A stretch of DNA of 64,000 nucleotides from Rhodococcus sp. KRD197 (GTDB taxonomy: Bacteria; Actinomycetota; Actinomycetes; Mycobacteriales; Mycobacteriaceae): contig NZ_JABFAO010000011.1 in NCBI RefSeq assembly GCF_017168235.1, positions 493,513-557,512 on the forward strand, written 5' to 3'. Position numbers and translations under genes: made by a program. Of the stretch, positions 2,430 to 19,739 are shown piece by piece. The notes under the pieces are model-generated. The model worked only from the letters and a program-made list of their open reading frames with translations, was not told the DNA's origin and searched no databases. Numbering within the stretch: position 1 is the stretch's first letter; the number at the start of each line of letters is the position of its first letter.

Positions 2430-3854
2430 TCAGTCCAGGTCGGCGGGAGAGGACAGTGTCCCCCGTACCGCCGTAGCGGCCGCGACCAACGGCGAAACCA
2501 GATGTGTCCTACTGCCCTTACCCTGTCGTCCTTCGAAATTCCGGTTCGAGGTCGACGCCGACCGTTCCCCCACCGCAAGTTGATCGGGGTTCATGCCCAA
2601 GCACATCGAGCAGCCCGCCTGCCGCCACTCCGCTCCCGCGGCAGTGAAGATCTCACCGAGTCCTTCTTTCTCTGCCTGTGCACGCACGCGCATCGAACCC
2701 GGGACGATCAGCATGCGAACACTGTCCGCGACCTTCCTGCCGTCCAGAACCTCCGCTACCGCACGCAGATCCTCGATACGTCCGTTGGTGCACGAGCCGA
2801 CGAAAACCGTGTCGACTGCGATCTCGCGCAGTGCCGTCCCAGGCTCGAGATCCATGTACTGAAGCGCCTTCTCGGCGGAGGTTCGCTCGCTTTCGTCGAC
2901 CATGTCCGCCGGATTCGGCACCCGATCTCCGAGTGGGGCCCCCTGCCCCGGGTTGGTTCCCCACGTGACGAACGGAGTCAACGCGGACGCGTCGATACGA
3001 ACTTCGTTGTCGAACACCGCATCGGGATCGGTCTTCAATTCCTCCCATGCCGCCACTGCCGCGTCCCAGTCGGCGCCGCGCGGAGCGTGCGGCCTGCCCT
3101 TGATGTACTCGTACGTAGTCTCGTCGGGCGCGATCATTCCCGCGCGTGCACCCGCCTCGATCGACATATTGCAGATCGTCATTCGAGCTTCCATGGACAG
3201 CTTCCGAATGGCCTCCCCGCGGTACTCGAGAACGTAGCCCTGCCCGCCACCGGTTCCGATCTTCGCGATGACGGCCAGGATGAGGTCCTTGCTGCTGACT
3301 CCTGGTGCGAGTTCGCCGTCGACTGTGATCGCCATGGTCTTGAACGGACGCAATGACAACGTCTGCGTTGCCATCACGTGCTCGACTTCACTGGTGCCGA
3401 TACCCATCGCCAGCGCCCCGAACGCGCCGTGTGTGGAGGTATGACTGTCGCCACAGACCACCGTCATGCCGGGCTGAGTGAGACCGAGTTGCGGGCCGAT
3501 GATGTGGACGATCCCCTGATCGAGATCCCCCATGGGGTACAGCCGAACTCCGAATTCCGCGCAGTTGCGCCGAAGTGTGTCCACCTGAGTACGCGAAACC
3601 AAATCTTCGATGGGCGAGAAGATGTCGGCTGTGGGGACGTTGTGGTCCTCGGTGGCGATCGTCAGATCCGGTCGGCGGAGCGGTCGATCCGCAAGACGCA
3701 GGCCATCGAAGGCCTGCGGGCTGGTGACCTCGTGCACGAGGTGCAGATCTATGAAGATGAGATCAGGTTCGCGCGCCCCACCTTCGCCACCACCGCGAAC
3801 CACGACGTGCTGATCCCATACTTTCTCAGCCAGAGTGCGTGCTGTGCCGGCCAT
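2430..3854 (-). CDS. leuC: 3-isopropylmalate dehydratase large subunit
   Basis: 474 residues, full length for the aconitase-type large subunit. The three ligands of the [4Fe-4S] cluster are visible: Cys354 in VGSCTNGR, and Cys415 and Cys418 in GCSMCLGMN. The motifs [22 protein letters not shown] and [10 protein letters not shown] are also present. It forms the active isomerase with LeuD. The gene is divergent from ltbR across 147 bases that contain an LtbR-type motif, so regulation by LtbR is very likely. The start at 3854 gives the normal N-terminus ([14 protein letters not shown]). Confidence 0.97.
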
Positions 3855-3972
3855 GCTTCATCACCAACCATTCTTCGAGTGCGTCGCGCCGGTGGACTAC
3901 GGGCTGGCCCACGTCGCGTCATGTCGTCGATACCGGCTACCCCGAAGCGGCGCGCACGCCCTAACGTGCGTT

Positions 3973-3986
3973 CCCACTATGCGAGA
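3973..3986. promoter_or_regulatory. Putative LtbR operator A (leuC/ltbR gap)
   Basis: CCCACTATGCGAGA is an imperfect palindrome matching the motif YYCAYTATGYGAGA, which recurs at 9408-9421 and 17303-17316. On the minus strand it contains CATAGT (3980-3975), a possible leuC -10 box. On the plus strand it lies just upstream of the ltbR -10, so one bound regulator could control both genes. Operator identity is inferred from position and recurrence. Confidence 0.65.
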
Positions 3987-3989
3987 CGT

Positions 3990-4001
3990 TAATATCGACC
4001 T
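3990..4001 (+). promoter_or_regulatory. Candidate leaderless promoter of ltbR
   Basis: TAATAT (3990-3995) ends six bases before the ATG at 4002, the spacing that puts the transcript start on the A of the start codon. No ribosome site precedes the ATG, which fits a leaderless mRNA, common in actinobacteria. Confidence 0.5.
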
Positions 4002-4703
4002 ATGAGACAGCATAGCGGCATCGGCGTCCTCGACAAAGCGATGGGTGTTCTGTACGCGGTTGCCGAAGAACCCTGCACTCTCAGTGATCTCTGCGAACGC
4101 ACCGGCCTGCCGCGTGCGACAGCGCACCGGTTGGCCGTCGGCCTCGAGATTCACCGACTGCTCACCCGCGATACCGGCGGCGTGTGGCGCCCCGGGCCTG
4201 GCCTGGCCGAGCTCGCCGCGAGCGCCTCCGACACCTTGGTCGACGCTGCGGCGGCAGTTCTACCGCGGCTACGCGAGATCACCGGAGAAAGCGTCCAGGT
4301 CTATCGCTGCGAGGGCACCGTCCGCGTGTGCGTCGCCTCGATGGAACCACCCGCGGGGCTTCGTGACACGGTGCTCGTAGGGGCCCGCTTGCCCATGACT
4401 GCCGGCTCCGGGGCCAAGGTCCTGCTCGCGTGGGCCGACCCACAGACTCAGCATGCACTACTGCCGGACGCAGAATTCGGGGAACGGGCTCTGGCCGAAG
4501 TTCGTCGCCGCGGATGGGCGCAGAGTGCCGGTGAACGCGAACCCGGCGTCGCCAGCGTCGCAGCGCCCGTACGCGACGCTGTCGGCAAAGTAGTTGCGGC
4601 CGTGTCTGTTTCCGGTCCGATAGACCGCATCGGCCGGAGACCAGGGGCACGGTGGGCCGCCGACTTGCTCGCCGCTGCCGAAGCAATCCACAAGCGCCTC
4701 TGA
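4002..4703 (+). CDS. ltbR: IclR-family regulator of leucine biosynthesis (LtbR-like)
   Basis: 233 residues. A winged helix-turn-helix occupies residues 1-65 (TLSDLCERTGLPRATAHRL is the recognition region). An IclR effector domain follows (VYRCEGTVRVCVASMEP, LPMTAGSGAKVLLAW, GVASVAAPVRDAVGKVVAAVSVSGP). The position divergent from leuCD is the same as for LtbR of Corynebacterium glutamicum and Rv2989 of M. tuberculosis. LtbR represses leucine and tryptophan genes. The likely operator overlaps its own promoter, so it should be autoregulated. Effector not deducible from sequence. Confidence 0.88.
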   Translation: MRQHSGIGVLDKAMGVLYAVAEEPCTLSDLCERTGLPRATAHRLAVGLEIHRLLTRDTGGVWRPGPGLAELAASASDTLVDAAAAVLPRLREITGESVQVYRCEGTVRVCVASMEPPAGLRDTVLVGARLPMTAGSGAKVLLAWADPQTQHALLPDAEFGERALAEVRRRGWAQSAGEREPGVASVAAPVRDAVGKVVAAVSVSGPIDRIGRRPGARWAADLLAAAEAIHKRL

Positions 4704-4724
4704 GATCCACAACGTAGCCGCGAA

Positions 4725-4739
4725 GGTGACGCAGTCACC
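4725..4739. other. Small hairpin after ltbR
   Basis: GGTGAC (4725-4730) pairs with GTCACC (4734-4739) around a 3-base loop, 21 bases past the ltbR stop. It has no T run. It may be a weak terminator or lie in the 5' region of the next gene. Confidence 0.25.
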
Positions 4740-4771
4740 ATATCGGCCGAAGTTCTGCTAGAGAGTAGAGC

Positions 4772-5275
4772 GTGGGAACCAACCAGCGCACACAGATCAC
4801 CATGACAGACGCCGAAACGACGACGTTTCTCGAACGCAGCCGCATCGCGAATCTCGCGACCCTGGGACGCGACGGCACACCTCACCTCGTGGCCATGTGG
4901 TACGGACTGATCGACGGAGAAATCTGGTTCGAGACCAAGGCGAAGTCGCAGAAGGCAGTCAACCTCCGCAGGGATCCGAGACTGACCGTGCTCATCGAGG
5001 ACGGCCACACCTACGACACGCTTCGTGGGGTGTCCATCGAGGGTCACGCGGAGATCGTCGACGATGCGGAATCGATCTCGAAAGTCGGCATCAGCGTATG
5101 GGAGCGGTACACCGGCCCGTACTCCGAAGAAGTCAAGCCACTCGTGGATCAGATGATGAACAAGAGAATTGCGGTGCGCGTCGCCGTGGATCGCGTCAGA
5201 TCGTGGGACCACCGCAAGCTCGGCCTGCCCGAGATGCCACTGTCCGGCACCACAGCGCGTTACCTCGAGCAATAG
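4772..5275 (+). CDS. PPOX-class (FMN/F420-binding split-barrel) protein
   Basis: 167 residues with the split-barrel signature of the pyridoxamine-5'-phosphate-oxidase-like superfamily: ARIA-type start RIANLATLGRDGTPHLVAMW, then IWFETKAKSQKAVNLRRDPR and the HAEI strand. Actinobacterial proteins of this size often use F420 and reduce or oxidise unknown substrates; a homologue (Rv2991) lies at this place in M. tuberculosis. The GTG start at 4772 gives an N-terminus MGTNQRTQI; an ATG at 4802 (MTDAETTTFL) is the main alternative and would remove ten residues. Cofactor and substrate cannot be told from sequence. Confidence 0.8.
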   Translation: MGTNQRTQITMTDAETTTFLERSRIANLATLGRDGTPHLVAMWYGLIDGEIWFETKAKSQKAVNLRRDPRLTVLIEDGHTYDTLRGVSIEGHAEIVDDAESISKVGISVWERYTGPYSEEVKPLVDQMMNKRIAVRVAVDRVRSWDHRKLGLPEMPLSGTTARYLEQ

Positions 5276-5360
5276 GCCACCGAGGCACACCGAAAAACCG
5301 GGTGATGCAATTTCGCAGGTGAGGTACGTTTTATTCGTCACCGACGTGCGAGGAGCGATC

Positions 5361-5558
5361 ATGACCCCAACAAGCAAGAACCCATCCAGCAAGAACCCGC
5401 CGAGCGACGACGATATGAAGAAGAAGTTCCGCGAGGCACTCGACAAGAAGAACCACAGGGCCACGCCGACCACCGAACACAAGGACGGCGGTCCGAAAGT
5501 GAACAACGTTCACGGGCCGGCCGATCACCAGAAAATGTTTCGGCGCAAGAGCGTCTGA
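5361..5558 (+). CDS. Small conserved actinobacterial protein (DUF5302-like)
   Basis: 65 residues, very hydrophilic, with no membrane segment. The core DDMKKKFREALDKKN and the C-terminal end HGPADHQKMFRRKSV resemble the DUF5302 family of small actinobacterial proteins of unknown function. The start at 5361 follows GAGGAGCGATC, a good ribosome site. It ends just before a strong bidirectional terminator. Not to be confused with the longer frame reaching back to 5169, which overlaps the preceding gene. Confidence 0.75.
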   Translation: MTPTSKNPSSKNPPSDDDMKKKFREALDKKNHRATPTTEHKDGGPKVNNVHGPADHQKMFRRKSV

Positions 5559-5580
5559 GCAAGGCCACGGTACGAACAGA

Positions 5581-5623
5581 AAAGCACCCTCCAAGCCAAA
5601 TGGCTTGGAGGGTGCTTTGTTTT
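5581..5623. terminator. Bidirectional intrinsic terminator
   Basis: A perfect 17-bp stem (5581-5597 with 5602-5618, loop AAAT) is followed by GTTTTG on the plus strand. On the other strand the stem ends in TTT. It separates the small DUF5302-like gene from the convergent tRNA-Glu gene. Confidence 0.9.
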
Positions 5624-5624
5624 G

Positions 5625-5697
5625 TAGCCCCGACGGGATTCGAACCCGCGCTACCGCCTTGAGAGGGCGGCGTCCTAGGCCGCTAGACGACGGGGCC
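5625..5697 (-). tRNA. tRNA-Glu (anticodon CTC)
   Basis: The 73-base cloverleaf folds fully on the minus strand. The acceptor stem is GGCCCCG with CGGGGCT and discriminator A. The anticodon loop is CTCTCAA in the stem CCGCC/GGCGG, and the T loop is TTCGAAT. CCA is not encoded. The gene ends next to the bidirectional terminator. Its cognate synthetase gene, gltX, is about 1.3 kb away. Confidence 0.96.
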
Positions 5698-5818
5698 AGG
5701 AACTTTCATGGTAGCTGCGCTACCTGCACTGCTTTCTACCTGCACTGCTTGCTTCGATGAGAAGCTCGGTCAGTTTAACCGACCCGCGTTCGGCAACAAA
5801 ATCGCTGCCGCTCGCTTG

Positions 5819-5890
5819 CTGGGGTACCAGGACTCGAACCTAGAATGGCGGTACCAGAAACCGCTGTGTTGCCAATTACACCATACCCCA
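5819..5890 (-). tRNA. tRNA-Gln (anticodon CTG)
   Basis: The 72-base cloverleaf folds on the minus strand. Its acceptor stem TGGGGTA/TACCCCA starts with the U1-A72 pair typical of tRNA-Gln. The anticodon loop is TTCTGGT and the T arm is TAGGTTCGAGTCCTG. It lies upstream of tRNA-Glu and the two are probably co-transcribed. With no glnS in view and gatCAB present, it is presumably charged with Glu by GltX and then amidated. Confidence 0.95.
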
Positions 5891-5906
5891 ATGGCTTTGT
5901 TCGAGA

Positions 5907-5928
5907 TCCACATCTCGTCCGATGTGGA
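5907..5928. other. Hairpin between the YihY gene and tRNA-Gln
   Basis: TCCACATC (5907-5914) pairs with GATGTGGA (5921-5928) around a 6-base loop. It may mark the end of the gltX-yihY transcript. It has no T run, so this is tentative. Confidence 0.3.
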
Positions 5929-5996
5929 CCGCGTTTCGGGCCGGGATAGAGACTATCAAACGACACCGGTGTTTCTCCAAATCGCCTGGTCAAGCG

Positions 5997-6980
5997 CTAT
6001 GGAGAACGCTGTTCCTCGTCCGGGCGAGGGCCATCGAACGTCACTTCTATTTCCTCGAACCCCTTGCTGCGCTGCGCCTCGGCCTGCCCGGTGTACGTGA
6101 GCTCGTCGCCCTCGGTCAGTTCCACGTCGTCGGTGAACGGCGTGAGCAACGACCTCGGGTAGAGCCTCCTGACTCTGACGGCGTTGATTTCGACCGAGAT
6201 CACGACGACCGCCGCCGCGATGTACATGAAGGCCAACACCCCGAGTACCACCGCAAACACTCCGTTGGTGATCGACGCGCGCGTGACGACGTACTTGATG
6301 TAGGCGCCGCCGAAGGCCTGCAACAGTTGCCACACCACACCGGCCACCATCGCGCCCGGCAGGACGTCGGTGAGGGACAGCGCTCGCGCCGTGGCAAGCC
6401 GGAAGGCGACCGTGAACACCACGGTGTTCAGCAGGACCATCGCCACGAACACGACGACGCCCGTGACGGGACCGAAGTACCCCGCCGAGCTGACGACGTT
6501 CACCGCGGTGATCGCGAGGACCGCCAGTCCGACGGTGCTGAGCAGAGCGAGACCGCGTACTCGCGCGAAAATGGGATCCGGTCTCAGATTCTTCGGAATC
6601 GCCCACGCAATGTTGGTGGCATTCTGAAGGGCCACGGCGACTCCGAGGCCGCCGTACAGGGACCCGAGAAACCCCACGATCAACCCGATGACTCCGCCGC
6701 CGATGTTCTGCGGCTCACCCAGATCCGTTCCGAGAATCGGGATCTGCTCGAGCGCCGACTCCAGGATTTCCTGCTGCAGTTCGGGATTGCCCGCGAGGAC
6801 GAGGCCGAGAATCGTCGAGCCCAGCAGCAACAGCGGGAACAGCGACACGAAGGCGTAGTAGGCGATCAGGGCGGCAAGATAGCCGCCCTGATCGTCGACG
6901 AACTTGTAGATCACGGCGATGGGAAAGCCGAGCGCAGGATGCCTGCGCTGGGTCCGGTCCAACCAGCCGGAGAAACTCAT
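5997..6980 (-). CDS. YihY/BrkB-family inner-membrane protein
   Basis: 327 residues with about six hydrophobic segments. The family hallmark follows the N-terminus (GGYLAALIAYYAFVSLFPLLLLG), and GAMVAGVVWQLLQAFGGAYIKYV with SVEINA near the end are also typical of YihY/BrkB. These proteins were long mislabelled ribonuclease BN; their true role is unknown. The C-terminal ~45 residues are charged and cytosolic. It follows gltX by 13 bases on the same strand, so it is probably co-transcribed, although no functional link is obvious. Confidence 0.85.
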   Translation of the reverse strand: MSFSGWLDRTQRRHPALGFPIAVIYKFVDDQGGYLAALIAYYAFVSLFPLLLLGSTILGLVLAGNPELQQEILESALEQIPILGTDLGEPQNIGGGVIGLIVGFLGSLYGGLGVAVALQNATNIAWAIPKNLRPDPIFARVRGLALLSTVGLAVLAITAVNVVSSAGYFGPVTGVVVFVAMVLLNTVVFTVAFRLATARALSLTDVLPGAMVAGVVWQLLQAFGGAYIKYVVTRASITNGVFAVVLGVLAFMYIAAAVVVISVEINAVRVRRLYPRSLLTPFTDDVELTEGDELTYTGQAEAQRSKGFEEIEVTFDGPRPDEEQRSP

Positions 6981-6993
6981 CGGGCTTCGGCTG

Positions 6994-8466
6994 TCAACCG
7001 ATGGTGGCGCGCGCAGCGCGCAGCCGAGCCAGTGTCTTCTCCCGACCGAGCAGTTCCATCGATTCGTACAACGGCGGGCTGACGTGTGATCCGGTCACTG
7101 CCACTCGTACGGGTGCGAACGCCTTGCGCGGTTTGAGCTCCATTCGCTCCACCAAGGCGGCCTTGAGCGCTTCTTCCAGATCGGCGGTGCGCCACTGCGC
7201 CAGCTCGGTCAGCGCGTCGATCGTGGCGTCGAGAACCGGGCCCGCGTCGGCGCCCAGGTTCTTCGACGCGGCGGCCGGATCGATTTCGAAGTCGGCGTCG
7301 TCGACGTACAGGAACTTCAGCAAGTCCCATGCATCGGCCAAGACCACGATTCGCGTCTGCACGAGATCCGCCGCAACCGCGAACTTCGTCTCGTCGATTT
7401 CGGCCGGCAGATGACCATGCTCGGTGAGAAATGCGCGGAGCCGCCCAGCGAAGTCTTCCGGCGACAGCAACCGAATGTGCTCGGCGTTGATGGCGTCGGC
7501 CTTCTTCTGGTCGAAACGCGCAGGGTTCGAGTTGACCGAGGAGATGTCGAACGCGGCCACCATCTGATCGAGAGTGAAGACATCGTGGTCGTCGGAGATG
7601 CCCCACCCGAGCAACGCCAGGTAGTTGAGCAGTCCCTCGGGTACGAACCCTCGGTCGCGGTGGATGAACAGATTCGACTCGGGGTCACGCTTGGAGAGCT
7701 TCTTGTTGCCCTGACCCATCACGAACGGCAGATGCCCGAACTCCGGCGCACGCTCGGCGACACCGATCCGCACGAGAGCCTCGTACAGTGCCAGTTGCCT
7801 CGGCGTGGAGGAAAGCAGATCCTCACCGCGCAGCACGTGCGTGATCTTCATCAAGGCATCGTCGACAGGATTGACCAAGGTGTACAACGGAATTCCGTTG
7901 CCGCGAGTCAACGCGAAGTCCGGCACGGTTCCGGCCTTGAAGGTGGTTTCGCCGCGCACCAGGTCGGTCCAGGTCAGGTCGTGATCCGGCATACGCAGGC
8001 GGACAACGGGCTTGCGACCCTCGTCCAGGAAGGCCTGCTTCTGCGCATCGGTCAAATCGCGGTCGAAGTTGTCGTAGCCCAGCTTCGGGTCACGCCCTGC
8101 GGCGCGGTGCCGCGCTTCCACCTCCTCAGGCGTGGAGAAAGACTCGTAGGCCTCCCCGGCCTCGCGGAGCTTCCGAACGACCTCGAGATGCTGATCGCGC
8201 CGAAGCGACTGACGGTACGGCTCGTACGGGCCACCGACCTCAGGGCCCTCGTCCCAGGACAGACCCAGCCACCGCAACGCGTCGAGGATGGCGGCGTAGG
8301 ACTCCTCGGAGTCTCTGGCTGCGTCGGTGTCCTCGATGCGGAAGACGAAACTCCCGCCGTGATGGCGGGCGAACGCCCAGTTGAACAGCGCCGTGCGGAT
8401 CAAACCGACGTGCGGCGTTCCGGTCGGCGACGGACAGAATCGGACTCGTACTTCAGTGGAGGTCAT
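6994..8466 (-). CDS. gltX: Glutamyl-tRNA synthetase (probably non-discriminating)
   Basis: 490 residues, full length class I synthetase. The HIGH-type motif is [15 protein letters not shown] (His19). The KMSKS-type motif is NKKLSKRD. It ligates glutamate to tRNA-Glu. Because gatA, gatB and gatC are in this window and no glutaminyl-tRNA synthetase is seen, it very likely also charges tRNA-Gln with glutamate for later amidation. Cognate tRNA genes lie downstream of the yihY gene. The ATG at 8466 gives the expected N-terminus [16 protein letters not shown]. Confidence 0.96.
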
Positions 8467-8527
8467 GTCTCACTCATCGTCGAGGGGTTGAATTCGCCTT
8501 GGGTCGTGCTCAGCTTTGTGCGGCGCT

Positions 8528-9301
8528 CTACTTCTTTGCGGCGACCGGGTTCGTGAGGGTTCCGATACCTTCTACGGTGACGGACACCGACTGGCCCGAC
8601 GTGATCGGACCGACGCCCTCGGGGGTACCGGTGAGAATGACGTCGCCGGGAAGCAAGGTCATCACCGCCGAGACCCACTCGATGATGTCGGGGATGTCGT
8701 GCAGCAGCAGCGAGGTTCGACTGCGCTGCTTGACCTCACCGTCCACCTCGGTCCTGATCTCGACATCCGAGGGATCGAGGGCGGTCTCGATCCAGGGCCC
8801 GAGCGGACAGAACGTGTCGTGCCCCTTCGCCCTCGTCCACTGCCCGTCCTGCCGCTGATGATCGCGCGCGGAGACATCGTTGGCGACCGTGTATCCGAGC
8901 ACCACATCGAGCGCCTTCGACGCAGGAACATCCTTGCAGGGCCGTCCGATGATCACTGCGAGCTCGCCCTCGTAGTGCACCTCGGAGGAGGTGGGGGGCA
9001 GCACGATCGGGGCGCCGGGGCCGACGATCGATGTGTTCGGCTTGAGGAAGATGACCGGCGAGTCCGGGGCTTCGCTACCCATCTCAGCGGCGTGCGCGGC
9101 ATAGTTCTTGCCGATTGCAATCACTTTGCTCGCGAGAATTGGTGCGAGCAGACGTACGTCGGCGAGTGGCCACGACCGACCGGTGAACGTCGGTGTGCCG
9201 AAGGGATGTTCGGCAATCTCCCGCGCCGTCCGCTCTTCACCCTCTCCCTCGATACTCACGAATGCCACACCATCAGGACTTGCAATTCGACCCAGACGCA
9301 T
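8528..9301 (-). CDS. Fumarylacetoacetate hydrolase (FAH) family protein
   Basis: 257 residues. An N-terminal cap is followed by the FAH fold: KVIAIGKNYAAHAAEMG, then the metal-binding HYEGELAVIIG and the GYTVANDVSARD segment carrying the conserved acidic ligand, and GDVILTGTPEGVGP near the end. FAH-like enzymes of this length include oxaloacetate decarboxylases, acylpyruvases and catabolic hydratases; the substrate is not evident. It is upstream of gltX on the same strand and divergent from the MFS gene, as in the M. tuberculosis order (Rv2993c). Confidence 0.88.
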   Translation of the reverse strand: MRLGRIASPDGVAFVSIEGEGEERTAREIAEHPFGTPTFTGRSWPLADVRLLAPILASKVIAIGKNYAAHAAEMGSEAPDSPVIFLKPNTSIVGPGAPIVLPPTSSEVHYEGELAVIIGRPCKDVPASKALDVVLGYTVANDVSARDHQRQDGQWTRAKGHDTFCPLGPWIETALDPSDVEIRTEVDGEVKQRSRTSLLLHDIPDIIEWVSAVMTLLPGDVILTGTPEGVGPITSGQSVSVTVEGIGTLTNPVAAKK

Positions 9302-9386
9302 GTCGGAAGTCTATCGACCTTCGACGCGCAGTGACGACGGCCGTCCTCACCCGCGACGGTGAAGGTGTGTAAAGTTCGCTTCGATG

Positions 9387-9423
9387 TTCATATTTCAAGA
9401 TTCAGTGTTCACTATGTGAGATC
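9387..9423 (+). promoter_or_regulatory. MFS gene promoter overlapped by putative LtbR operator B
   Basis: TTCATA (9387-9392) and CACTAT (9410-9415) are 17 bases apart and give a likely promoter for the MFS gene. The second box lies inside TTCACTATGTGAGA (9408-9421), a match to the motif seen before leuC/ltbR and ilvB. A regulator bound there would block the -10 region. It could also affect the divergent FAH gene. Confidence 0.6.
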
Positions 9424-9431
9424 GGAATGGA

Positions 9432-10628
9432 ATGACCACCGCGAACCATGTGCAACGCACCGGTGGCGCACGCAAGTGGGTCATGCTCGCTCTCGGGATG
9501 CTCGCGCAGACTGCGGGCGCTGTCTTCATCAACGGCGCCGCCTTTCTCATTCCCGCCTTGCTAGACGACCGCGGTCTCAGCCTTGCTGCCGCAGGACTTC
9601 TCGTCGCAATGCCGACAGTCGGAATCATGCTCACCCTCATCGCCTGGGGAATGCTGGTGGACCGGATCGGTGAGCGCCTCGTCCTGTGCATCGGGCTGGC
9701 ACTGACAGCCGCCGCCAGCGCCACCGCCGTCTTCACCACCTCGTTGCCTCTGCTGGGCCTGTGCCTGCTGATCGGCGGAATGGCTGCAGCAAGCGCGAAC
9801 AGCGCCAGCGGACGCGTGGTCGTGGGATGGTTTCCGCCGCAACGCCGCGGTCTCGCCATGGGGATACGCCAAATGTCCGTACCGCTCGGTGTGGCCATCG
9901 CCGCGATGACGGTGCCCCCTATCGCCCGAGATCACGGGGTGTCCGCGGCGCTGCTCGTGCCGGCATCGATCTGCGCCGTCGGTGCACTGCTGTGCCTCGG
10001 GGTGCTCGACCCCCCGCGGCCCGACCGTGCTGCGGCCGAACACATGGGCTTGCTCAGCAATCCCTACCGCGCCGGATCACAGCTGTGGCGAATTCACTCG
10101 ACGTCGATTCTGCTCGTCGTTCCGCAGTACGTCGTATGGACCTACTCGCTGGTCTGGCTCATGACCGACCGCGCATGGTCGGCGGCGTCCGCAGGAGTTC
10201 TCGTCACCGTCACACAGATCCTCGGGGCCCTGGGGCGCATGGGGGTTGGCGCGCTGTCCGACAGGGTCGGCAGTCGTATGCGCCCGCTGCGCTGGGTGTC
10301 GGCCGCGGCTGCGCTGAGCATGCTCGGATTGGCCCTGACGGACTGGCTGGACTCACCACTGTCCGTCGCGTTTCTGATCGCAGCGTCCATTGCCACGGTT
10401 GCGCCGAACGGGCTCGCGTTCACTGCAGTCGCCGAGTTCTCCGGCCCCTACTGGAGCGGACGTGCACTCGGGGTTCAGAACACCGGCCAGTATGTCGCCG
10501 CGTCGCTGGTACCACCGGGATTCGGTGTGCTGGCAGCGGTGAGTTTCCCGGTGGCCTTCCTCGTATCGGCGGTGTTCCCCGCCCTCGCCATGCCGGTGAT
10601 CCCGGACGATCACCGATCGCCCGGGTAA
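9432..10628 (+). CDS. Major facilitator superfamily transporter
   Basis: 398 residues with about twelve hydrophobic segments. The MFS signature between helices 2 and 3 is visible as GMLVDRIGERL, and the mirrored loop in the second half is GALSDRVGSRMRP. No substrate is evident; residues resemble the actinobacterial group that includes Rv2994. The start at 9432 follows GGAATGG. The promoter carries an LtbR-type motif, suggesting a link to branched-chain amino acid metabolism, for example export of an amino acid or keto acid. That role is inference. Confidence 0.85.
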   Translation: MTTANHVQRTGGARKWVMLALGMLAQTAGAVFINGAAFLIPALLDDRGLSLAAAGLLVAMPTVGIMLTLIAWGMLVDRIGERLVLCIGLALTAAASATAVFTTSLPLLGLCLLIGGMAAASANSASGRVVVGWFPPQRRGLAMGIRQMSVPLGVAIAAMTVPPIARDHGVSAALLVPASICAVGALLCLGVLDPPRPDRAAAEHMGLLSNPYRAGSQLWRIHSTSILLVVPQYVVWTYSLVWLMTDRAWSAASAGVLVTVTQILGALGRMGVGALSDRVGSRMRPLRWVSAAAALSMLGLALTDWLDSPLSVAFLIAASIATVAPNGLAFTAVAEFSGPYWSGRALGVQNTGQYVAASLVPPGFGVLAAVSFPVAFLVSAVFPALAMPVIPDDHRSPG

Positions 10629-10630
10629 GA

Positions 10631-10693
10631 CGGTCACCCCGCGGTGACCGAATGTCACAGTTGGTCACTCTGAGTGACCAACTGTGACATTCG
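10631..10693. terminator. Double palindrome between convergent MFS and leuB genes
   Basis: CGGTCACC/GGTGACCG (10631-10650) is followed by a perfect 22-bp inverted repeat (10649-10670 with 10672-10693) with a single unpaired base at its centre and the apex CACTCTGAGTG. Placed between two convergent genes, it is probably a bidirectional terminator, though it has no T run. Its structure resembles the palindrome at 19753-19798. Confidence 0.65.
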
Positions 10694-10719
10694 CTCCATA
10701 CAACGCGCCGAAAAGACCC

Positions 10720-11730
10720 CTACAGCCTTGCGGCAATCCGATCGCCGACAGCGCTGGTGCTCGCAACACCGGCTCCGCGGTCGGCGAGGTCCGCGGCAAC
10801 GGCAGCCTCGACGCGCTCCGCGTTCGCCGTGTCACCGAGATGCGCGAGCAGCAACGACACCGACAGGATCGCCGCTGTCGGGTCGGCCTTGCCTTGGCCC
10901 GCGATGTCCGGCGCACTGCCGTGCACCGGCTCGAACATGCTCGGGTTGGTCCGCGTGGCATCGATGTTGCCGCTGGCTGCCAGACCGATCCCGCCGCTCA
11001 CCGCCGCGGAGAGGTCGGTGACGATATCGCCGAACAAGTTGTCGGTGACGATGACATCGAAACGACCGGGATCGGTGACGAGGTGGATCATCGCGGCGTC
11101 GATGTGCTGGTAGGCCACCTCGACATCCGGAAATTCCTTCGACACGGCGTCGACCGTGCGCGACCAGAGGCTGCCGGCGAAGGTCAACACATTGGTCTTG
11201 TGCAGCAGGGTGACGTGCTTGCGCCGACCCATTGCCCGTGCGAACCCGTCCCGGACGACCCGTTCCACTCCGTAGCGCGTGTTGACGCTCACTTCGGTGG
11301 CCACCTCGTGGGGGGTGTTCACCCGCAGCGCGCCTCCGTTTCCGGTGTACGGCCCCTCGGTTCCCTCCCGAACCACAACGACGTCGATGTCCTTGTTCCC
11401 ATCGAGCGGACCGACGACCCCTGGGTACAGCTTCGCCGGCCTGAGGTTGATGTGGTGATCGAGCTCGAACCGCGCACGCAGCAAGAGTCCACGTTCGAGG
11501 ATCCCGCTCGGCACGGACGGATCGCCGATCGCGCCGAGCAGGATGGCGTCGTGCCCACGAAGCTCGTCGAGCACCGAGTCCGGGAGAAGCTCACCGGTGG
11601 CGTTGTAGCGGCGCGCACCGAGGTCGTACTCGGTCTTCTCGACCCCTGGGACGACGATATCGAGCACTTTGAGTGCCTCGTCGACGACCTCTGGGCCGAT
11701 TCCATCTCCGGCGATGACGGCGAGCTTCAT
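10720..11730 (-). CDS. leuB: 3-isopropylmalate dehydrogenase
   Basis: 336 residues of the isocitrate/isopropylmalate dehydrogenase family. Visible motifs include [15 protein letters not shown] at the N-terminus, the [15 protein letters not shown] substrate loop, and [15 protein letters not shown] with [18 protein letters not shown] (metal and NAD binding). It oxidatively decarboxylates 3-isopropylmalate to 2-oxoisocaproate in leucine synthesis. It lies 44 bases downstream of serA on the same strand and may be co-transcribed with it. The length (about 20 residues under the E. coli type) is normal for actinobacteria. Confidence 0.96.
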
Positions 11731-11774
11731 GGACTCCTCGTTCTTCTCAGGCGCTTGCTTGGACGGTGACGCGA

Positions 11775-13370
11775 TCAGGACAGGTCGACGAGCTCGATCG
11801 TCGACGCGCCCACCGACTCGGCGATGCTCGCCCTCAATTCGGCCGATACATCTTTGTCGACGCGCAGCAGGATGGTCGCGCCGCTGCCCTCGGAGTCCTG
11901 ACTGAGTGCAGCTGCCTGGATGTCGATTCCGGCGTCACCGAGCAGCGTGCCGATACGGCCGAGGCTTCCGGGCTGATCGGCGTAGTTGACGATGAGGTTC
12001 TTGCCCTCGGCACGGAGCTCGAAGTTGCGGCCGTTGATGTTGACGATCTTCTCGACCTGCTGCGTGCCGGTGAGCGTGCCCGCGACATTGAGCACCGAAC
12101 CGTCCCCGTAGACAGCGCGCACGTCGACGACGCTTCGGTGATTCTCGCTCTCGCTGGCCTTCGTCACCTCGGCGCTGACGCCCCGCTCCTGCGCGAGCGA
12201 CGGCGCGTTGACGAAGGTGACCGAATCCTCGATGACAGCTGAGAACAATCCGCGCAGTGCCGAGAGCTTCAGAATCTCGACCTCTTCGGCAGCGAGTTCT
12301 CCGCGGACATCGACCGACAGGGACGTAGGGAGCTCGTCCGACAGCGCACCCAGGAGCACGCCCTGCTTGCGGACGATCTCGAGCCAAGGCGAGACCTCTT
12401 CGCCGACGGCCCCGCCCTTGACGTTGACTGCGTCGGGAACGAACTCGCCTGCCAGAGCCAGCAGAACGGACTTCGCGACATCGGTGCCGGCCCGGTCCTG
12501 CGCTTCGGTGGTGGAGGCGCCGAGGTGCGGGGTGACGACGACCTGCGGGAGCTCGAAGAGCGGGCTGTCGGTGCAGGGTTCGGTGGCATACACATCGATG
12601 CCCGCTGCGAACACGTGACCGCTGACAATCGCGTCGGCGAGGGCTTGCTCGTCCACCAGGCCACCGCGTGCGGCGTTGACGACGATGACGCCCGGCTTGG
12701 TTTTGGCCAGCGCTTCCTTGCCGATGATGCCCTTGGTCTCGGGCGTCTTGGGCAGGTGGACGGAGAACATGTCGGCGCGAGTCAACAGTTCGTCGAGAGT
12801 TACCAGCTCGATTCCGAGCTGCGCGGCGCGGGCGGCGGAGACGTAGGGGTCGTAGGCGATGACGTGGGTCTCGAACGCGGCGACACGCTGCGCGAACAGC
12901 TGTCCGATACGTCCGAGGCCCACGACACCGACCGTCTTGCCGAACAACTCGACGCCGTTGAACTTGCTGCGCTTCCACTCGTGCTGACGGAGGGTGGCGT
13001 CGGCCGCGGGGATCTGCCGGGCCGCGGCGAGCAGCAGCGTGACGGCGTGTTCTGCCGCGGTGTGAATGTTCGAGGTCGGCGCGTTCACGACGAGTACTCC
13101 GCGCTCGGTGGCGGCGGGCACGTCGACGTTGTCCAGGCCGACGCCCGCACGCGCGACGATCTTCAGTTTGGTTCCGGCCGCGAGGACCTCGGCGTCGACC
13201 GTGGTGGCCGAGCGAACGAGGATGGCGTCGGCTTCTGGAACAGCGGCCAACAGAGCCGGGCGGTCCGGGCCGTCGACCCAACGGACCTCGACGCCGTCGC
13301 CGAGTGCCTCGACTGTGGACTGCGCAAGTTTGTCGGCGATCAGAACGACAGGACGGCCTGGCTGGCTCAC
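11775..13370 (-). CDS. serA: D-3-phosphoglycerate dehydrogenase
   Basis: 531 residues, the long form. The catalytic and NAD-binding parts come first ([15 protein letters not shown] as the Rossmann motif, [10 protein letters not shown] with the catalytic Arg region, and [10 protein letters not shown] with the catalytic His). An ASB-type intervening domain and a C-terminal ACT domain ([17 protein letters not shown]) follow, as in M. tuberculosis SerA1, which is feedback-inhibited by serine. It starts the phosphorylated serine pathway, whose phosphatase step is encoded by serB at 56454. GTG start preceded by AGGGAG. Confidence 0.96.
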
Positions 13371-13456
13371 GTGGAAAACTCCCTATGTAGGTCGTGATGA
13401 ATCTTTGGGCGAGCTGAAGTGCATGTGTGCAGGACGAGTTTAAGCGTCGCCTTGCG

Positions 13457-13508
13457 ACCGAAGGGCACCCGACCCGCGCCTGGCAGCGCGTGCCGGGCGC
13501 CCTTCGGT
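13457..13508. terminator. Large hairpin after ilvC
   Basis: ACCGAAGGGC (13457-13466) pairs with GCCCTTCGGT (13499-13508). The arms between them (ACCCG and GCCGGGC, then GCGC pairs) extend the stem. It lies 24 bases past the ilvC stop and upstream of serA. There is no T run, but it is a plausible end for the ilvBNC transcript. Confidence 0.55.
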
Positions 13509-13532
13509 GGTACTACCGACGATTCGCCGGAA

Positions 13533-14549
<1,017 letters not shown>

Positions 14550-14615
14550 TTAGTACCTTTCCTCTGGGGTCTGTTCAACTCTTCGGCGGCGCGCTGGCGC
14601 GACGCCGTCATCGCG

Positions 14616-14637
14616 GGCGTCTCGCTAGCGAGACGCC
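14616..14637. other. Perfect 22-bp palindrome across the ilvN stop codon
   Basis: GGCGTCTCGCT (14616-14626) is the exact reverse complement of AGCGAGACGCC (14627-14637). The palindrome contains the ilvN stop codon (14625-14627). In the mRNA it would form a stable hairpin at the 3' end of ilvN, ahead of ilvC. It could be a partial terminator, an RNA-stability element or a protein-binding site. Confidence 0.5.
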
Positions 14638-15128
14638 GTGATCGATTTGGGTCCACGTCCGACGGCAACGACTCCCGACTGGACAATTTCTCGAATTCCG
14701 TAGGGATCCAACATTTTCAACAGCGCATCGAGTTTCGACCGTGTTCCCGTCGCCTCGACGGTGACAGCCTCGGGCGAGACATCGATGACCTTGGCGCGGA
14801 AAAGATTGACGGTCTCGATGACCTCACTGCGCACACTTGCATCGGCGCGAACCTTGATGAGCACGAGTTCGCGGGCCACCGACGAATCATCGTCCTGCTC
14901 GACGATCTTGATGACGTTGATGAGCTTGTTGAGCTGCTTCGTCACCTGCTCGAGCGGGAATTCGTCGACCGTCACCACGATCGTCATTCGGGAAATTCCA
15001 GGAACCTCGGTTCCGCCGACCGCGAGCGAGGAGATGTTGAATCCCCGCCGCGAGAACAACGCCGCGACGCGTGCCAGAACACCTGGCGTGTCCTCGACGA
15101 GAACGCTGAGGGTATGGCTGGTGCTCAC
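14625..15128 (-). CDS. ilvN: Acetolactate synthase regulatory (small) subunit
   Basis: 167 residues. An N-terminal ACT domain ([25 protein letters not shown]) binds the inhibitor valine. The C-terminal ALS small-subunit domain contains the ARELVLIKV segment and ends near [13 protein letters not shown]. It activates IlvB and confers feedback control. The GTG start overlaps the ilvB stop in a GTGA, indicating translational coupling. Confidence 0.96.
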
Positions 15129-17089
15129 TTGTCGGCGCCTTTCGCCTCGTCGGTACCGGCGTGCTCGCCGAGTGCCTGCTCGCGTTCCATCGACTCTGCG
15201 ATGCCGGGCACGTGGCCATCGGCCTCGTCATCGTCGAACAGCGGGCGGATTCCGCGCGCAGCCATGATTTCGTCGTTTCCGGTGCCCGCGGCAACCATCG
15301 GCCACACCTGAGCATCCGCACCGACGATGAAGTCGATGACAACCGGACGGTCATTGATGGCACGAGCCTCGGCGATCACCGCATCGACGTCTTCCTCGCG
15401 TTCGCAGCGCAGGCCGACGCAACCCAATGCCTCGGCCAACTTCACGAAGTCGGGGATCCGGACGGCACCGTGGGTGCCGAGGTTGGTGTTGGAGTAACGC
15501 TCCTCGTAGAACAGTGTCTGCCACTGCCGCACCATGCCGAGGTTGCCGTTGTTGATCAGCGCGACCTTGATCGGGATGCCCTCGACAGCACACGTCGCGA
15601 GTTCCTGATTGGTCATCTGGAAGCACCCGTCACCGTCGATCGCCCACACCTCGGCGTCGGGCAGACCCATCTTCGCACCCATCGCGGCGGGCACCGCGTA
15701 ACCCATGGTGCCCAGACCGCCGGAGTTGAGCCACGTCCGCGGCTTCTCGTAGTCGATGAACTGTGCGGCCCACATCTGGTGCTGGCCGACGCCGGCACAG
15801 TAGATCGCGTCGGGTCCGGCGAACTTTCCGACCGAGGAGATGACGAACTCGGGTGACATGCTGCCGTCGCTGGGACGGTCGTAGCTGAGCGGGTAGGTCC
15901 TGCGAATGCCGTTCAGATACACCCACCAGTCCTCCAAATCGAGGGTGGTGCCGGTGGCGCGGTCGGCGCGGATGGCTTCGATCAGTTCGGTGATGACCTC
16001 TTTGCAGTCACCGACGATCGGGACGTCCGCATACCTGTTCTTGCCGATCTCTGCCGGATCGATGTCCGCGTGAATCACCTTGGCACCCGGCGCGAACGAG
16101 GACAGCTGACCGGTGACACGGTCGTCGAACCGCGCGCCGAGGGTGATGAGGAGATCGCTTCGCTGCAGGCCGGCAACTGCGGCGACCGTTCCGTGCATTC
16201 CGGGCATGCCCAGGTTCAAGTTGTGGCTGTCAGGGAAGGCGCCGCGAGCCATCAGCGTCGTGACGACGGGGATTCCGGTGAGCTCGGCCAGCTCCATCAG
16301 CTCGGCCGAGGCGTTCGCCTTGATGACGCCGCCACCGACGTAGAGCACAGGCTGCTTGGCGTCGGCGATGTAACGCGCTGCTTCACGAACCTGCTTGCCG
16401 TGCGGCTTCGTCACCGGCCGGTAGCCGGGCAGGCGCATCTCCGGCGGCCACGAGAACGTGGTCTGCGCCTGCAGCACGTCCTTGGGGATGTCGACGAGCA
16501 CGGCGCCGGGCCGACCCGAGGAGGCGAGGTAGAAGGCCTCGGCCATGATTCGCGGGATGTCGGCGCCGTCGGTGATCAGGAAGTTGTGCTTGGTGATCGG
16601 CATCGTGATGCCGGAGATGTCGGCTTCCTGGAATCCGTCGGTGCCGATCAAGCTGCGAGCGACCTGGCCGGTGATCGCGACGACCGGGACCGAGTCCATC
16701 TGCGCGTCGGCGAGCGGGGTGACGAGGTTGGTGGCACCGGGACCCGACGTTGCCATGCAGACCCCGACGCGTCCGGTTGCCTGCGCGTAGCCGGTGGCGG
16801 CGTGACCTGCACCCTGCTCGTGGCGCACTAGGACGTGCCGGACCTTCTTCGAGTCGAAGAGTGGGTCGTACACCGGGAGCACGGCTCCACCCGGAATGCC
16901 GAATACCGTGTCGACCTCGAGCTCTTCGAGAGCCCGGACGACGGACTGTGCGCCGGTCACCTTTTCGGGGGCGACATGGCGACGCGACCCGTCGATGGTG
17001 ACTGCGGCCGTTGTCTCCGGCACGGACGAGCTGTTGGCTGCCCCCGACTTACGTGTCGCGGGCCCTGGGCGTGCGGTTGGTGCGCTCAC
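15125..17089 (-). CDS. ilvB: Acetolactate synthase catalytic (large) subunit
   Basis: 654 residues. The N-terminal ThDP domain contains [16 protein letters not shown] and [14 protein letters not shown] with the catalytic Glu. A central FAD-binding domain follows. The C-terminal ThDP-binding motif is [17 protein letters not shown]. It condenses pyruvate with pyruvate or 2-oxobutyrate, the first common step of valine, leucine and isoleucine synthesis. The GTG at 17089 was chosen over a TTG at 17134: AGGAAG lies five bases upstream, and the protein then starts MSAPTARPG, like the mycobacterial homologue. Expression is probably controlled by attenuation in its 5' leader. Confidence 0.96.
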
Positions 17090-17135
17090 TGCTGCTTCCT
17101 CAGGATTTTCGGTTGCTGGACGATCTCTGGGCAAG

Positions 17136-17170
17136 AAAAAACCCCCGTCAGCCGAGGCTGGACGAGGGTG
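17136..17170 (-). terminator. Attenuator (terminator) in the ilvB leader
   Basis: On the minus strand CCCTCGTCCAGC pairs with GCTGACGGGGG around a CTCG loop with one bulged C. Six T residues follow (17141-17136). It lies 47 bases upstream of the ilvB start, downstream of a leader peptide rich in Ile/Leu/Val codons. This is the standard layout of a transcription attenuator. Confidence 0.85.
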
Positions 17171-17217
17171 GCGCGTCGATGCGAGTAGGGATTAACCGGC
17201 TCAGGCGACGACGCGCC
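17170..17217 (-). promoter_or_regulatory. Leader-peptide hairpin competing in ilvB attenuation
   Basis: GGCGCGTCG inside the leader peptide gene (17217-17209) is exactly complementary to CGACGCGCC (17178-17170), which abuts the terminator stem. A ribosome stalled at the two Val codons (17212-17207) would cover the first arm and release the second. A clear antiterminator partner for the released arm was not found by eye. Confidence 0.6.
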
Positions 17218-17248
17218 GGCCGATTACGAGTATCCATGTTCGCTTCAC
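17201..17248 (-). CDS. ilvB leader peptide (attenuation)
   Basis: A 15-codon frame beginning with GTG reads MKRTWILVIGRRVVA and stops with TGA. Six of its 15 residues are Ile, Leu or Val: ATA CTC GTA ATC in a row, then GTC GTC. It is followed after 30 bases by a terminator hairpin and then by ilvB. The established leader peptide of C. glutamicum ilvBNC is also 15 residues with a run of branched-chain residues. Low charged branched-chain tRNA would stall translation here and prevent termination. The ribosome site is weak (GAGCGC). Confidence 0.82.
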   Translation of the reverse strand: MKRTWILVIGRRVVA

Positions 17249-17302
17249 GCGCTCGACGTTAGGCGCGCAGGTAGCGAACAGTCAAACTCCTCACGACGCA
17301 AT

Positions 17303-17316
17303 CCCATTATGTGAGA
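17303..17316. promoter_or_regulatory. Putative LtbR operator C (ilvB/PH-protein gap)
   Basis: CCCATTATGTGAGA matches the motif found before leuC/ltbR and before the MFS gene. On the minus strand it contains CATAAT (17311-17306), the best -10 candidate for ilvB. This would place the transcript start about 50 bases before the leader peptide. Binding there would give ilvBNC repression on top of attenuation. Confidence 0.6.
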
Positions 17317-17324
17317 TCACGTAG

Positions 17325-17840
17325 ATGCAATGCGAAGATGAAGGGGTGTCACCTTCGCAGCAGTCCGAACCACCGGACACATCATCCCATACTCCTGCTC
17401 CGTCTCCGCAGGTCATCCGTCTCCCCCGCTTGGCGCTGGTCGGCGTGGGGATGCTCCTGTTCGGAGTGTCCTTCGCCGCGGCCAGCTGGCCGCTGGCCCT
17501 CGGGTGGCTGTTCGCCCTCCCCGTCGTCGCGGCCGTCTGGGTACTTCGCGTGCGCACGGTGGTGAGCACGGACGGGCTCGCCATGCGCCGTTTCGTGGGC
17601 TCCGATTTCGTGTCCTGGGACAACGTTCGCGGAATCCACTTCCCGGACCGACGGTGGGCACGAGTGGTCCTCGAGGACGACTCGGAGAAGTCCCTGCCGC
17701 TGGTGCGGTTCGATCGCCTACCTCAGCTGGCGGCCGCGAGTGGCGGACGCATCACCGACCCCTATGCGGCCGCCGCTGCTGACGTGGCAGTGGACGAGGA
17801 GCGGGACGAGGAGCCCACGCCGCACACGGAGAACTCGTAG
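17325..17840 (+). CDS. PH-domain membrane protein (Cfp6/Rv3004-like)
   Basis: 171 residues. A short polar N-terminus is followed by two close hydrophobic segments (about residues 35-75) and a small bacterial PH-like domain (TDGLAMRRFVGSDFVSWDNVRGIHFPDRRWARVVLEDDSEKSLPLVRF is its span). The C-terminal 25 residues are acidic. Homologues include the low-molecular-weight antigen Cfp6 at the same position in M. tuberculosis; function unknown. The start could instead be the GTG at 17346, which would remove seven residues. It is divergent from ilvB across the attenuator leader. Confidence 0.75.
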   Translation: MQCEDEGVSPSQQSEPPDTSSHTPAPSPQVIRLPRLALVGVGMLLFGVSFAAASWPLALGWLFALPVVAAVWVLRVRTVVSTDGLAMRRFVGSDFVSWDNVRGIHFPDRRWARVVLEDDSEKSLPLVRFDRLPQLAAASGGRITDPYAAAAADVAVDEERDEEPTPHTENS

Positions 17841-17897: not shown

Positions 17898-19739
17898 ATG
17901 CCGCCGCTACGGTCACGAGTCACCACTGTCGGACGAGGCGCTGCCGGCGCACGCTCGCTCTGGCGCGCAACCGGAATGACCGATTCCGACTTCGGCAAAC
18001 CGATTGTCGCGATCGCGAATTCGTACACCCAGTTCGTACCCGGCCACGTGCATCTGAAGAACGTCGGCGAGATCGTTGCCGATGCCGTCCGCGCCGCAGG
18101 CGGCGTTCCCCGTGAATTCCACACGATCGCCGTCGACGACGGGATCGCGATGGGCCACGGCGGCATGCTCTACTCGCTGCCCAGTCGCGAAATCATCGCC
18201 GACTCCGTCGAATACATGGCCAACGCCCACACCGCCGACGCCCTGGTCTGCATTTCCAACTGCGACAAGATCACTCCCGGAATGCTCAATGCGGCCATGC
18301 GGCTCAACATTCCATCCGTCTTCGTCTCGGGCGGGCCGATGGAAGCAGGCAAGGCTGTTGTCGTCGGTGGCGTCGCGCAGGCACCGACCGACCTCATCAC
18401 CGCGATCTCGGCGAGTGCAAACGACGCAGTGTCCGAGGACGGACTGGACGAGGTCGAGCGCAGCGCGTGCCCGACGTGCGGATCATGTTCGGGCATGTTC
18501 ACCGCCAACTCCATGAACTGCCTCACCGAGGCTCTCGGCTTGGCGCTGCCCGGCAACGGCTCTACGCTCGCCACCCACAAGGCCAGGTACGCGCTGTTCC
18601 AGCGTGCGGGTACCACCGTCGTCGAGGCCGCACTCAAGTACTACCGCGACGAGGACGAGTCCGTTCTGCCGCGCAACATCGCGACGCCTGCCGCCTTCCG
18701 CAACGCGATGGCACTCGATGTGGCCATGGGGGGGTCCACCAACACCGTGCTGCACACCCTCGCAGCCGCGCAGGAGGGCGAGGTCGACTTCGATCTCGAC
18801 ACCATCGACGCCATCAGCCGTAAGGTGCCGTGCCTGTCCAAGGTCTCTCCCAACTCGGATTACCACATGGAAGATGTGCACCGGGCCGGCGGAATCCCGG
18901 CTCTGCTCGGCGAGCTTCGTCGTGCGAATCTGCTGGAAACCGACGTGTCGACCGTGCACACGAAGAGCTTCGACGAGTGGCTGGACACGTGGGACATTCG
19001 CTCCGGCAAGGCCTCGGACGAAGCACTCGAGCTCTTCCACGCTGCTCCCGGCGGAGTTCGCACCATCGAACCGTTCTCGACGGAGAACCGGTGGTCCTCG
19101 CTCGACACCGACGCCGCCGGAGGTTGCATCCGCGACAAGGAACACGCGTACACCGTCGAGGGCGGCCTGGTTGTGCTGCGCGGGAACATCGCACTCGACG
19201 GAGCGATTCTCAAGACGGCAGGAATCGACGAGGATCTGTTCAGCTTTCAGGGCCCGGCGCTCGTCGTCGAGTCACAAGAAGAGGCCGTCTCGGCGATTCT
19301 GCAGAAGAAGATCAAGGCGGGCGACGTGCTCGTCGTGCGCTACGAGGGGCCCAAGGGCGGCCCCGGCATGCAGGAGATGTTGCACCCGACCGCGTTCCTC
19401 AAAGGCGCTGGTCTCGGGAAGGTCTGCGCCTTGATCACCGACGGTCGATTCTCCGGCGGAACATCGGGACTGTCCATCGGCCACATCTCCCCCGAGGCGG
19501 CCGCGGGCGGAGTCATCGGTCTCGTCGAGAACGGTGATCAGGTCCGCATCGATGTCGCTTCGCGCACGCTCGAGATCCTCGTCGACGACGCGACGCTGCA
19601 GACCCGTCGCGCAAAGATGGATGCCTCCGAGCGGCCCTGGCAGCCGGTGGATCGTCAGCGCACCGTCACCACGGCACTGCGCGCTTACGCCGCCCTGGCC
19701 ACCTCGGCAGACAAGGGCGCAGTGCGCTATGTGCCCTGA
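17898..19739 (+). CDS. ilvD: Dihydroxy-acid dehydratase, long (E. coli-type) form
   Basis: 613 residues. Cluster and active-site segments are [13 protein letters not shown] (Cys122) and [19 protein letters not shown] (Cys194/Cys197 region). The segment [14 protein letters not shown] lacks the extra cysteine that the short [2Fe-2S] forms carry, so this is the oxygen-sensitive E. coli type. It makes the keto acids of valine and isoleucine, completing the set with ilvBNC. M. tuberculosis keeps its ilvD elsewhere, so the placement here is a difference from that map. It ends at a strong palindrome opposite doxX. Confidence 0.95.

Follow-up and report, generated by a model that had tools for sequence, protein, structure and literature searches.

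Predicted LtbR operators at leuCD/ltbR, ilvBNC/ilvD and a conserved transporter gene in Rhodococcus

Brune et al. 2007 are said to have described LtbR of Corynebacterium glutamicum as an IclR-type repressor of leucine genes. Deletion of ltbR in that organism is given as raising isopropylmalate isomerase activity 4.5-fold (PMC6515235). In Streptomyces coelicolor, chromatin immunoprecipitation sequencing (ChIP-seq) of NdgR is reported to have yielded a 15-bp imperfect palindrome, with targets at ndgR-leuCD, ilvBNC, ilvD and leuB (PMC4340878), and a survey of IclR-family motifs gives KTYCRSMWYSYGRRM as the consensus of NdgR/LtbR in Actinobacteria (PMC8222616). Here we consider a 64-kb stretch of the genome of Rhodococcus sp. 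KRD197 (hereafter the window), in which an IclR-family gene, ltbR, lies beside leuC and a 15-bp inverted repeat, the box, occurs at three places. From sequence comparison we regard it as very probable that these three sites are operators of LtbR, an NdgR-type IclR regulator, serving leuCD/ltbR, ilvBNC together with a bPH-domain gene and ilvD on the opposite strand, and a gene for a transporter of the major facilitator superfamily (MFS).

The arrangement is that reported for S. coelicolor NdgR: the regulator has the HTH_IclR and IclR_C domains, its gene is divergent from leuCD, a 15-bp imperfect palindrome lies in the intergenic region between regulator and leuC, and further sites are found at ilvBNC and ilvD. 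The arms of the palindrome differ, being approximately TCYCA/TGRGA here and GTCCAC/GTGGAC in the account of NdgR. The published NdgR/LtbR consensus has the same length as the box, and the three sites fit it at 12-14 of 15 positions; its position 2 is T, whereas the ltbR and ilv boxes have C. Table 2 of the NdgR study (PMC4340878) names no gene as an MFS transporter. The regulator, the type of motif and the leu and ilv targets are already known from Streptomyces NdgR; a conserved transporter arm with tandem boxes may be new.

The box and its recurrence at ilvB and the transporter gene

An earlier note on this DNA, made from the letters alone, had pointed out three 14-bp matches to one motif. 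The pattern YYCAYTATGYGAGA does occur without mismatch at 3973-3986, 9408-9421 and 17303-17316, and these are its only exact matches in the 5,564,651-base genome, all within 13.3 kb, against none for the reversed-pattern control. Given that the pattern was written from those same sites, the exact count alone is a weak test, and it is the comparative tests that carry weight. The loosened motif is little enriched genome-wide: with up to three mismatches there are 238 forward and 221 reverse matches versus 180 and 178 for the control, and a second loosened version is found at 8 places versus 6 for TCYCANNNNNTGRGA. The sites of the earlier note are real, and their unit has to be redrawn as an imperfect inverted repeat of 15 bp, approximately TCYCAnnnnnYGRGA, which begins one base earlier (at 3972, 9407 and 17302) and is conserved symmetrically, most strongly in its outer arms. 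Because the centre of the box is variable, the exact 14-mer fits only 18 of the 80 ltbR sites of relatives.

3972..3986, no strand: predicted LtbR box TCCCACTATGCGAGA in the gap separating minus-strand leuC from plus-strand ltbR; conserved position, top-two matrix rank in the window
9407..9421, no strand: predicted LtbR box B GTTCACTATGTGAGA of the MFS promoter; box present in 66 of 67 relatives' promoters, own copy weak
17302..17316, no strand: predicted LtbR box TCCCATTATGTGAGA between ilvBNC (minus) and the bPH-domain gene with ilvD (plus); identical in the aligned genus loci, a box also in 24 of 27 others of the family
3976..3981, minus: putative leuC -10, CATAGT, inside the box (sequence only)
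3990..3995, plus: putative ltbR -10, TAATAT, conserved in relatives
4002..4703, plus: ltbR, IclR-family regulator of 233 amino acids (HTH_IclR and IclR_C)

Of 418 confirmed relatives, the ltbR loci used here are the best 80, selected by resemblance to the window's own gene, and come from Rhodococcus, Nocardia, Mycolicibacterium and others. In all 80 the box occupies positions -30 to -16 relative to the ltbR start, with T -30, C -29, C -27, A -26, T -22, G -19 and A -16 invariant. A conserved TARTAT follows at -12 to -7, in which T-9, A-8 and T-7 are kept in 78-79 of the 80 loci, T-12 in 71 and A-11 in 62; to judge from window positions 3990-4002, the ltbR mRNA is probably leaderless. The regulator gene is present in all 61 family genomes, and each residue of the segment LPRATAHRLA, taken to be the recognition helix of LtbR, is shared by 75 or more of the 80 loci. 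We infer that LtbR is the protein that binds the boxes from the place of its gene beside one of them, its presence throughout the family, its conserved helix-turn-helix and the analogy with the ChIP-seq results for Streptomyces NdgR.

A position weight matrix was built from the relatives' ltbR boxes only, in a symmetric and a one-strand version, and the window was scored along with 20 shuffles. With the symmetric matrix the ilv box ranked first in the window (19.7) and the ltbR box second (19.1), the next position reaching 11.5, while the top scores of the shuffles averaged 12.8 with a maximum of 17.5; the one-strand matrix gave 23.3 for the ltbR box and 20.9 for the ilv box. Applied to relatives, the ltbR-box matrix rose above the 99th percentile of random windows in 66 of 67 MFS promoters, for which the windows were 120-mers, and in 24 of 27 regions upstream of ilvB. 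None of 200 column-permuted matrices reached these counts, their means being 4.8 for the MFS promoters and 0.9 for ilvB and their maxima 53 and 15. The MFS tests used those 67 of the 80 loci that have a match to the transporter; among the 13 others, L059 and L062-L065 are full-length with leuB, whereas for L034, L045, L050, L060, L070, L090, L108 and L110 the contig or locus is shorter. The ilvB set comprised 27 further loci from the 61 family genomes, 26 of them from other genera and one (L182) from the same genus.

The 61 family genomes contain 86 perfect matches to TCYCANNATGYGRGA, compared with 6 for the reversed pattern, and 47 of the 86 stand no more than 500 bp before ltbR (24) or ilvB (23). 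The proposal of the earlier note that LtbR controls leuC/ltbR, ilvBNC and the transporter is supported by these family matches, by the invariant position before ltbR, by the transfer of the ltbR-box matrix to the other two promoters, and by the joint loss of box and transporter described below.

A sequence-only model, R1, built from 103 of 104 listed boxes (alignment A2), returned the three sites and no others in the window, at E-values from 0.36 to 9.7, its training boxes including these same sites. The genome-wide scan with R1 gave no match in the own genome and is uninformative, since 15 positions carry too little information.

The transporter promoter

9432..10628, plus: MFS transporter of 398 amino acids (MFS_1), between the Rv2993c-like gene and leuB
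9386..9400, no strand: weak second box A GTTCATATTTCAAGA of the MFS promoter, score 3.5, 21 bp upstream of box B

Box B ends 10 bases before the start of the MFS gene. Its support comes from the relatives, as the window's own copy is the weakest of the three sites. When the 67 promoters were scored around box B, the offset of -21 was the sole secondary peak, with a mean score of 0.1 versus -17.5 at the next offset, and 35 of the 67 loci score above 2.9 there. Within the genus (alignments of the most similar 30 of 37 genomes, the own locus included) every locus has a further CA at a distance of exactly 21 bp upstream from that of box B. A spacing of 21 bp amounts to two helical turns, which suggests that two LtbR dimers would sit side by side on tandem boxes at this promoter.

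Five loci of the erythropolis group (L059, L062, L063, L064 and L065) have no MFS match and retain the Rv2993c-like gene and leuB; the FAH-leuB gap measures less than 100 bases in each of L059 and L063. Searched over 300 bases upstream of the Rv2993c-like gene, these five loci showed no box: their best scores lie between -0.1 and 4.5, whereas random 300-base windows reach 10.97 at the 99th percentile, and the median box score of the 67 loci having the MFS gene is 14.9. A sixth MFS-less row, L108 (score -3.5), was set aside in this test for its short contig. With the transporter absent and its neighbour still there, the five loci have no box either, which would tie the box to the transporter and not to the neighbouring gene.

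The transporter itself has a near full-length match, at 62% identity or above, in all 37 genus genomes. Its best family matches are of organic-anion types, all far below the cut-offs. An AlphaFold model made with 35 aligned sequences has a mean pLDDT (predicted local distance difference test score) of 89.4, and fold comparison against the PDB returned G6PT, DgoT, OxlT, sialin and also NorA; the model has the general MFS fold and leans to organic anions, without pointing to a substrate. Its neighbour carries an Rv2993c-like_N domain. Three published nonamers of Rv2994 (starts 223, 100 and 307) find best matches with 4-7 of 9 residues identical; among eight loci, all three are colinear in one (L096), two in four, one in two and none in one, and in the window two of the three are colinear. 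On the strength of the neighbour's domain and these partial colinear matches, the transporter probably belongs to the Rv2994 family and is likely an ortholog of Rv2994. Rv2994 is a Mycobacterium tuberculosis MFS protein that is listed as an efflux pump (PMC6300501, PMC4335044, PMC7803423). That literature treats Rv2994 in terms of drug efflux, whereas here the promoter would tie its probable ortholog to the supply of branched-chain amino acids, and we think that its probable substrate is a branched-chain amino acid or the corresponding 2-oxo acid.

More tentatively, we propose that in Rhodococcus, Nocardia and mycobacteria the LtbR regulon has a third arm of ancient origin, the MFS transporter, which would act as a valve for branched-chain amino acids or their 2-oxo acids and be read from a tandem-operator promoter, where more regulator would be integrated than at the promoters of the biosynthetic genes. 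Within the literature searched, outside which subscription papers and supplements lie, no paper was found to name both Rv2989 and Rv2994, and the one containing Rv2994 and leucine mentions them apart; a search made mostly at the level of titles on NdgR or LtbR with transporters or Rhodococcus, of the same reach, found none on this link. The likely LtbR operator across Mycobacteriales is now a clear and testable sequence, and it connects with branched-chain amino acid supply a transporter that is widely conserved and whose probable relatives figure only as efflux pumps in the literature searched. If true, these transporters would have a function in cell physiology apart from drug efflux, and there would be a handle for amino acid production strains.

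The ilv box and the mode of control

15125..17089, minus: ilvB (PRK07789, TIGR00118); start picked by eye, gene finder gave 17023
17141..17169, minus: attenuator, a terminator hairpin followed by a U-run; from terminator scan and folding, conserved
17201..17248, minus: ilvB leader peptide MKRTWILVIGRRVVA, rich in Ile, Leu and Val, ahead of the T-run
17306..17311, minus: putative ilvB -10, CATAAT, inside the box (read from the letters alone)
17331..17840, plus: bPH-domain protein (bPH_6), first plus-strand gene past the ilv box; start 17325 or 17331

The third site had been assigned to ilvB in the earlier note. It does lie before ilvB, which is on the minus strand, and at the same time between ilvBNC and the plus-strand genes for the bPH-domain protein and ilvD. 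This box is identical in all 30 aligned genus loci, the own one included. A relative, L183, has two box-like palindromes 17 bp apart before ilvB, TCCCAGAGTGTGAGA and TCCCATCATGTGGGT. A simple promoter scan of 17000-17400 found no sigma-70-type pair.

Behind the same promoter lies what has been described for other Actinobacteria as an ilvB attenuator (PMC1262725, a report whose main text has no occurrence of Rhodococcus): a leader peptide with Ile, Leu and Val codons and then a terminator before ilvB. An Ile/Leu/Val-rich leader precedes the T-run in 55 of 57 loci (the misses are L189 and L192), and the 56-nt attenuator stretch folds at -23.2 kcal/mol with a z of -2.53. No Rfam family was found above threshold at the leader and attenuator.

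The earlier note also held that each site covers a likely -10. This fits the putative hexamers of leuC (CATAGT), ilvB (CATAAT) and the MFS gene (CACTAT); at ltbR the TARTAT lies just downstream of the box. In the mechanism that we propose, LtbR would bind the 15-bp inverted repeat over the likely -10 of leuCD, ilvBNC and the MFS gene and just upstream of the -10 of ltbR, which would thereby be self-controlled. Given the position of the box over the -10 and the analogy with Corynebacterium LtbR, bound LtbR would be expected to close these promoters; the simplest view is repression by occlusion, the sign of control being drawn from these two points. When the supply of branched-chain amino acids is low, as reported by a presumed signal molecule, LtbR would release its sites and leuCD, ilvBNC with the bPH-domain gene and ilvD, and the transporter would rise together, with the leader-peptide attenuator forming a second layer of control on ilvBNC.

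Alternative explanations and the reach of the regulon

The sequence common to the three sites could be a promoter core, that is, the -10 region and its surroundings kept for RNA polymerase, and each box does hold a -10-like hexamer for a neighbouring gene in a GC-rich genome, where promoters tend to be AT-rich. This is quite improbable: the two halves of the box are conserved alike and its outer arms most of all, the box before ltbR and the TARTAT downstream of it are conserved as two distinct blocks, another copy stands at a distance of exactly 21 bp in the MFS promoter, and permuting the columns of the matrix, which leaves its composition unchanged, greatly lowers the number of sites found. 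Only marginally better is the standing of the idea that the boxes are operators of another regulator that also acts on ltbR, such as a different IclR-family protein. The motifs of related regulators overlap (PMC8222616, Table 1), and of the 86 perfect matches in the family 39 are found at other places; against this, the box is fixed before ltbR in every one of the 80 loci, ltbR itself is found in each of the 61 family genomes, and in Streptomyces the ortholog is reported to bind at these leu and ilv genes too, on a palindrome of 15 bp. We likewise think it unlikely that the second site controls the divergent Rv2993c-like and gltX genes rather than the transporter: the intergenic region is indeed shared, with plus- and minus-strand starts about 130 bp apart, but box B ends 10 bases short of the MFS start, and the five loci that keep the Rv2993c-like gene and leuB and lack the MFS match show no box in the 300 bases searched.

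Several observations weigh against the three sites being LtbR operators, or against parts of that interpretation. The 39 family matches just mentioned are unexplained, and some of them may be MFS promoters or further targets. One of the 20 shuffles reached 21.2 with the one-strand matrix, above the 20.9 of the ilv box, and the window's own MFS box ranks only third or fourth, at 11.2-11.5, inside the range of the shuffles. The consensus KTYCRSMWYSYGRRM does not discriminate, as 14 window positions reach 14 of its 15 matches, and it was rejected as a test because it matches too often. The loci compared are related by descent, the 80 having been picked for their likeness to this ltbR, and the joint loss of box and transporter concerns one clade and perhaps one event. 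Three of the 27 ilvB loci are without a box (L192, L197 and L200), and L182, a more distant locus of the same genus, has a diverged ilv box, TCCCGGGATGTGGGA. Repression is made uncertain by the description of S. coelicolor NdgR as an activator of ilv genes (PMC10331944).

As far as the loose matches were followed, the LtbR regulon predicted here looks small and mostly local. The earlier note had proposed checking whether hits concentrate before leuA, leuB, ilv and trp genes. Sites before leuA and trp genes are reported for some species without defining the group, and an extension to them is not supported here; with the ltbR-box matrix no box was found before leuA (best -2.2) or trpE (best 1.4) in the own genome, in which it departs from C. 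glutamicum, where LtbR is reported to act on trp genes as well. NdgR is reported to bind at leuB, whereas none of the 15 best window positions falls in the serA-leuB gap. A weak candidate box, TCTCGTTAGATAGGA, scores 8.0 at about -167 from the ilvE match (L243).

At one mismatch the genome holds two further matches, of which L006 is inside a gene and L007 intergenic. The latter (L007:97-2356, own genome contig C14) is a palindromic box flanked on one side by a MerR-like gene and on the other by a gene for a retron-like reverse transcriptase. Of the two-mismatch matches, 26 have a locus (L008-L033, among them the MFS site as L014) and 12 more have none; besides L014, the gene finder places L009, L018, L022, L024, L027, L030, L032 and L033 between genes. 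The neighbours of L009, L022, L024, L032 and L033 were searched and none is a leu, ilv or trp gene. For L033 no family was found, and for the other four they are, in turn, ctaJ; a hydrolase and a UspA-like gene; a Bcr/CflA efflux gene; and a DMT transporter with groEL.

The genes under discussion run from leuC and leuD (minus) through ltbR (plus), the Rv2993c-like hydrolase gene and gltX (minus) to the MFS gene (plus), followed by leuB, serA, ilvC, ilvN and ilvB on the minus strand and then by the bPH-domain gene and ilvD (plus). Further coordinates are as follows.

1742..2359, minus: leuD, from Aconitase_C and its place after leuC; start approximate
2430..3854, minus: leuC (TIGR00170 / PRK05478)
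13533..14546, minus: ilvC (KARI_N, KARI_C)
14625..15128, minus: ilvN (ALS_ss_C, ACT)
17898..19739, plus: ilvD (TIGR00110, PRK12448)

Among its named relatives, the ltbR gene comes closest to those of Rhodococcus and Rhodococcoides strains. Two tRNA genes lie near gltX on the minus strand, at 5625-5697 and 5819-5890.

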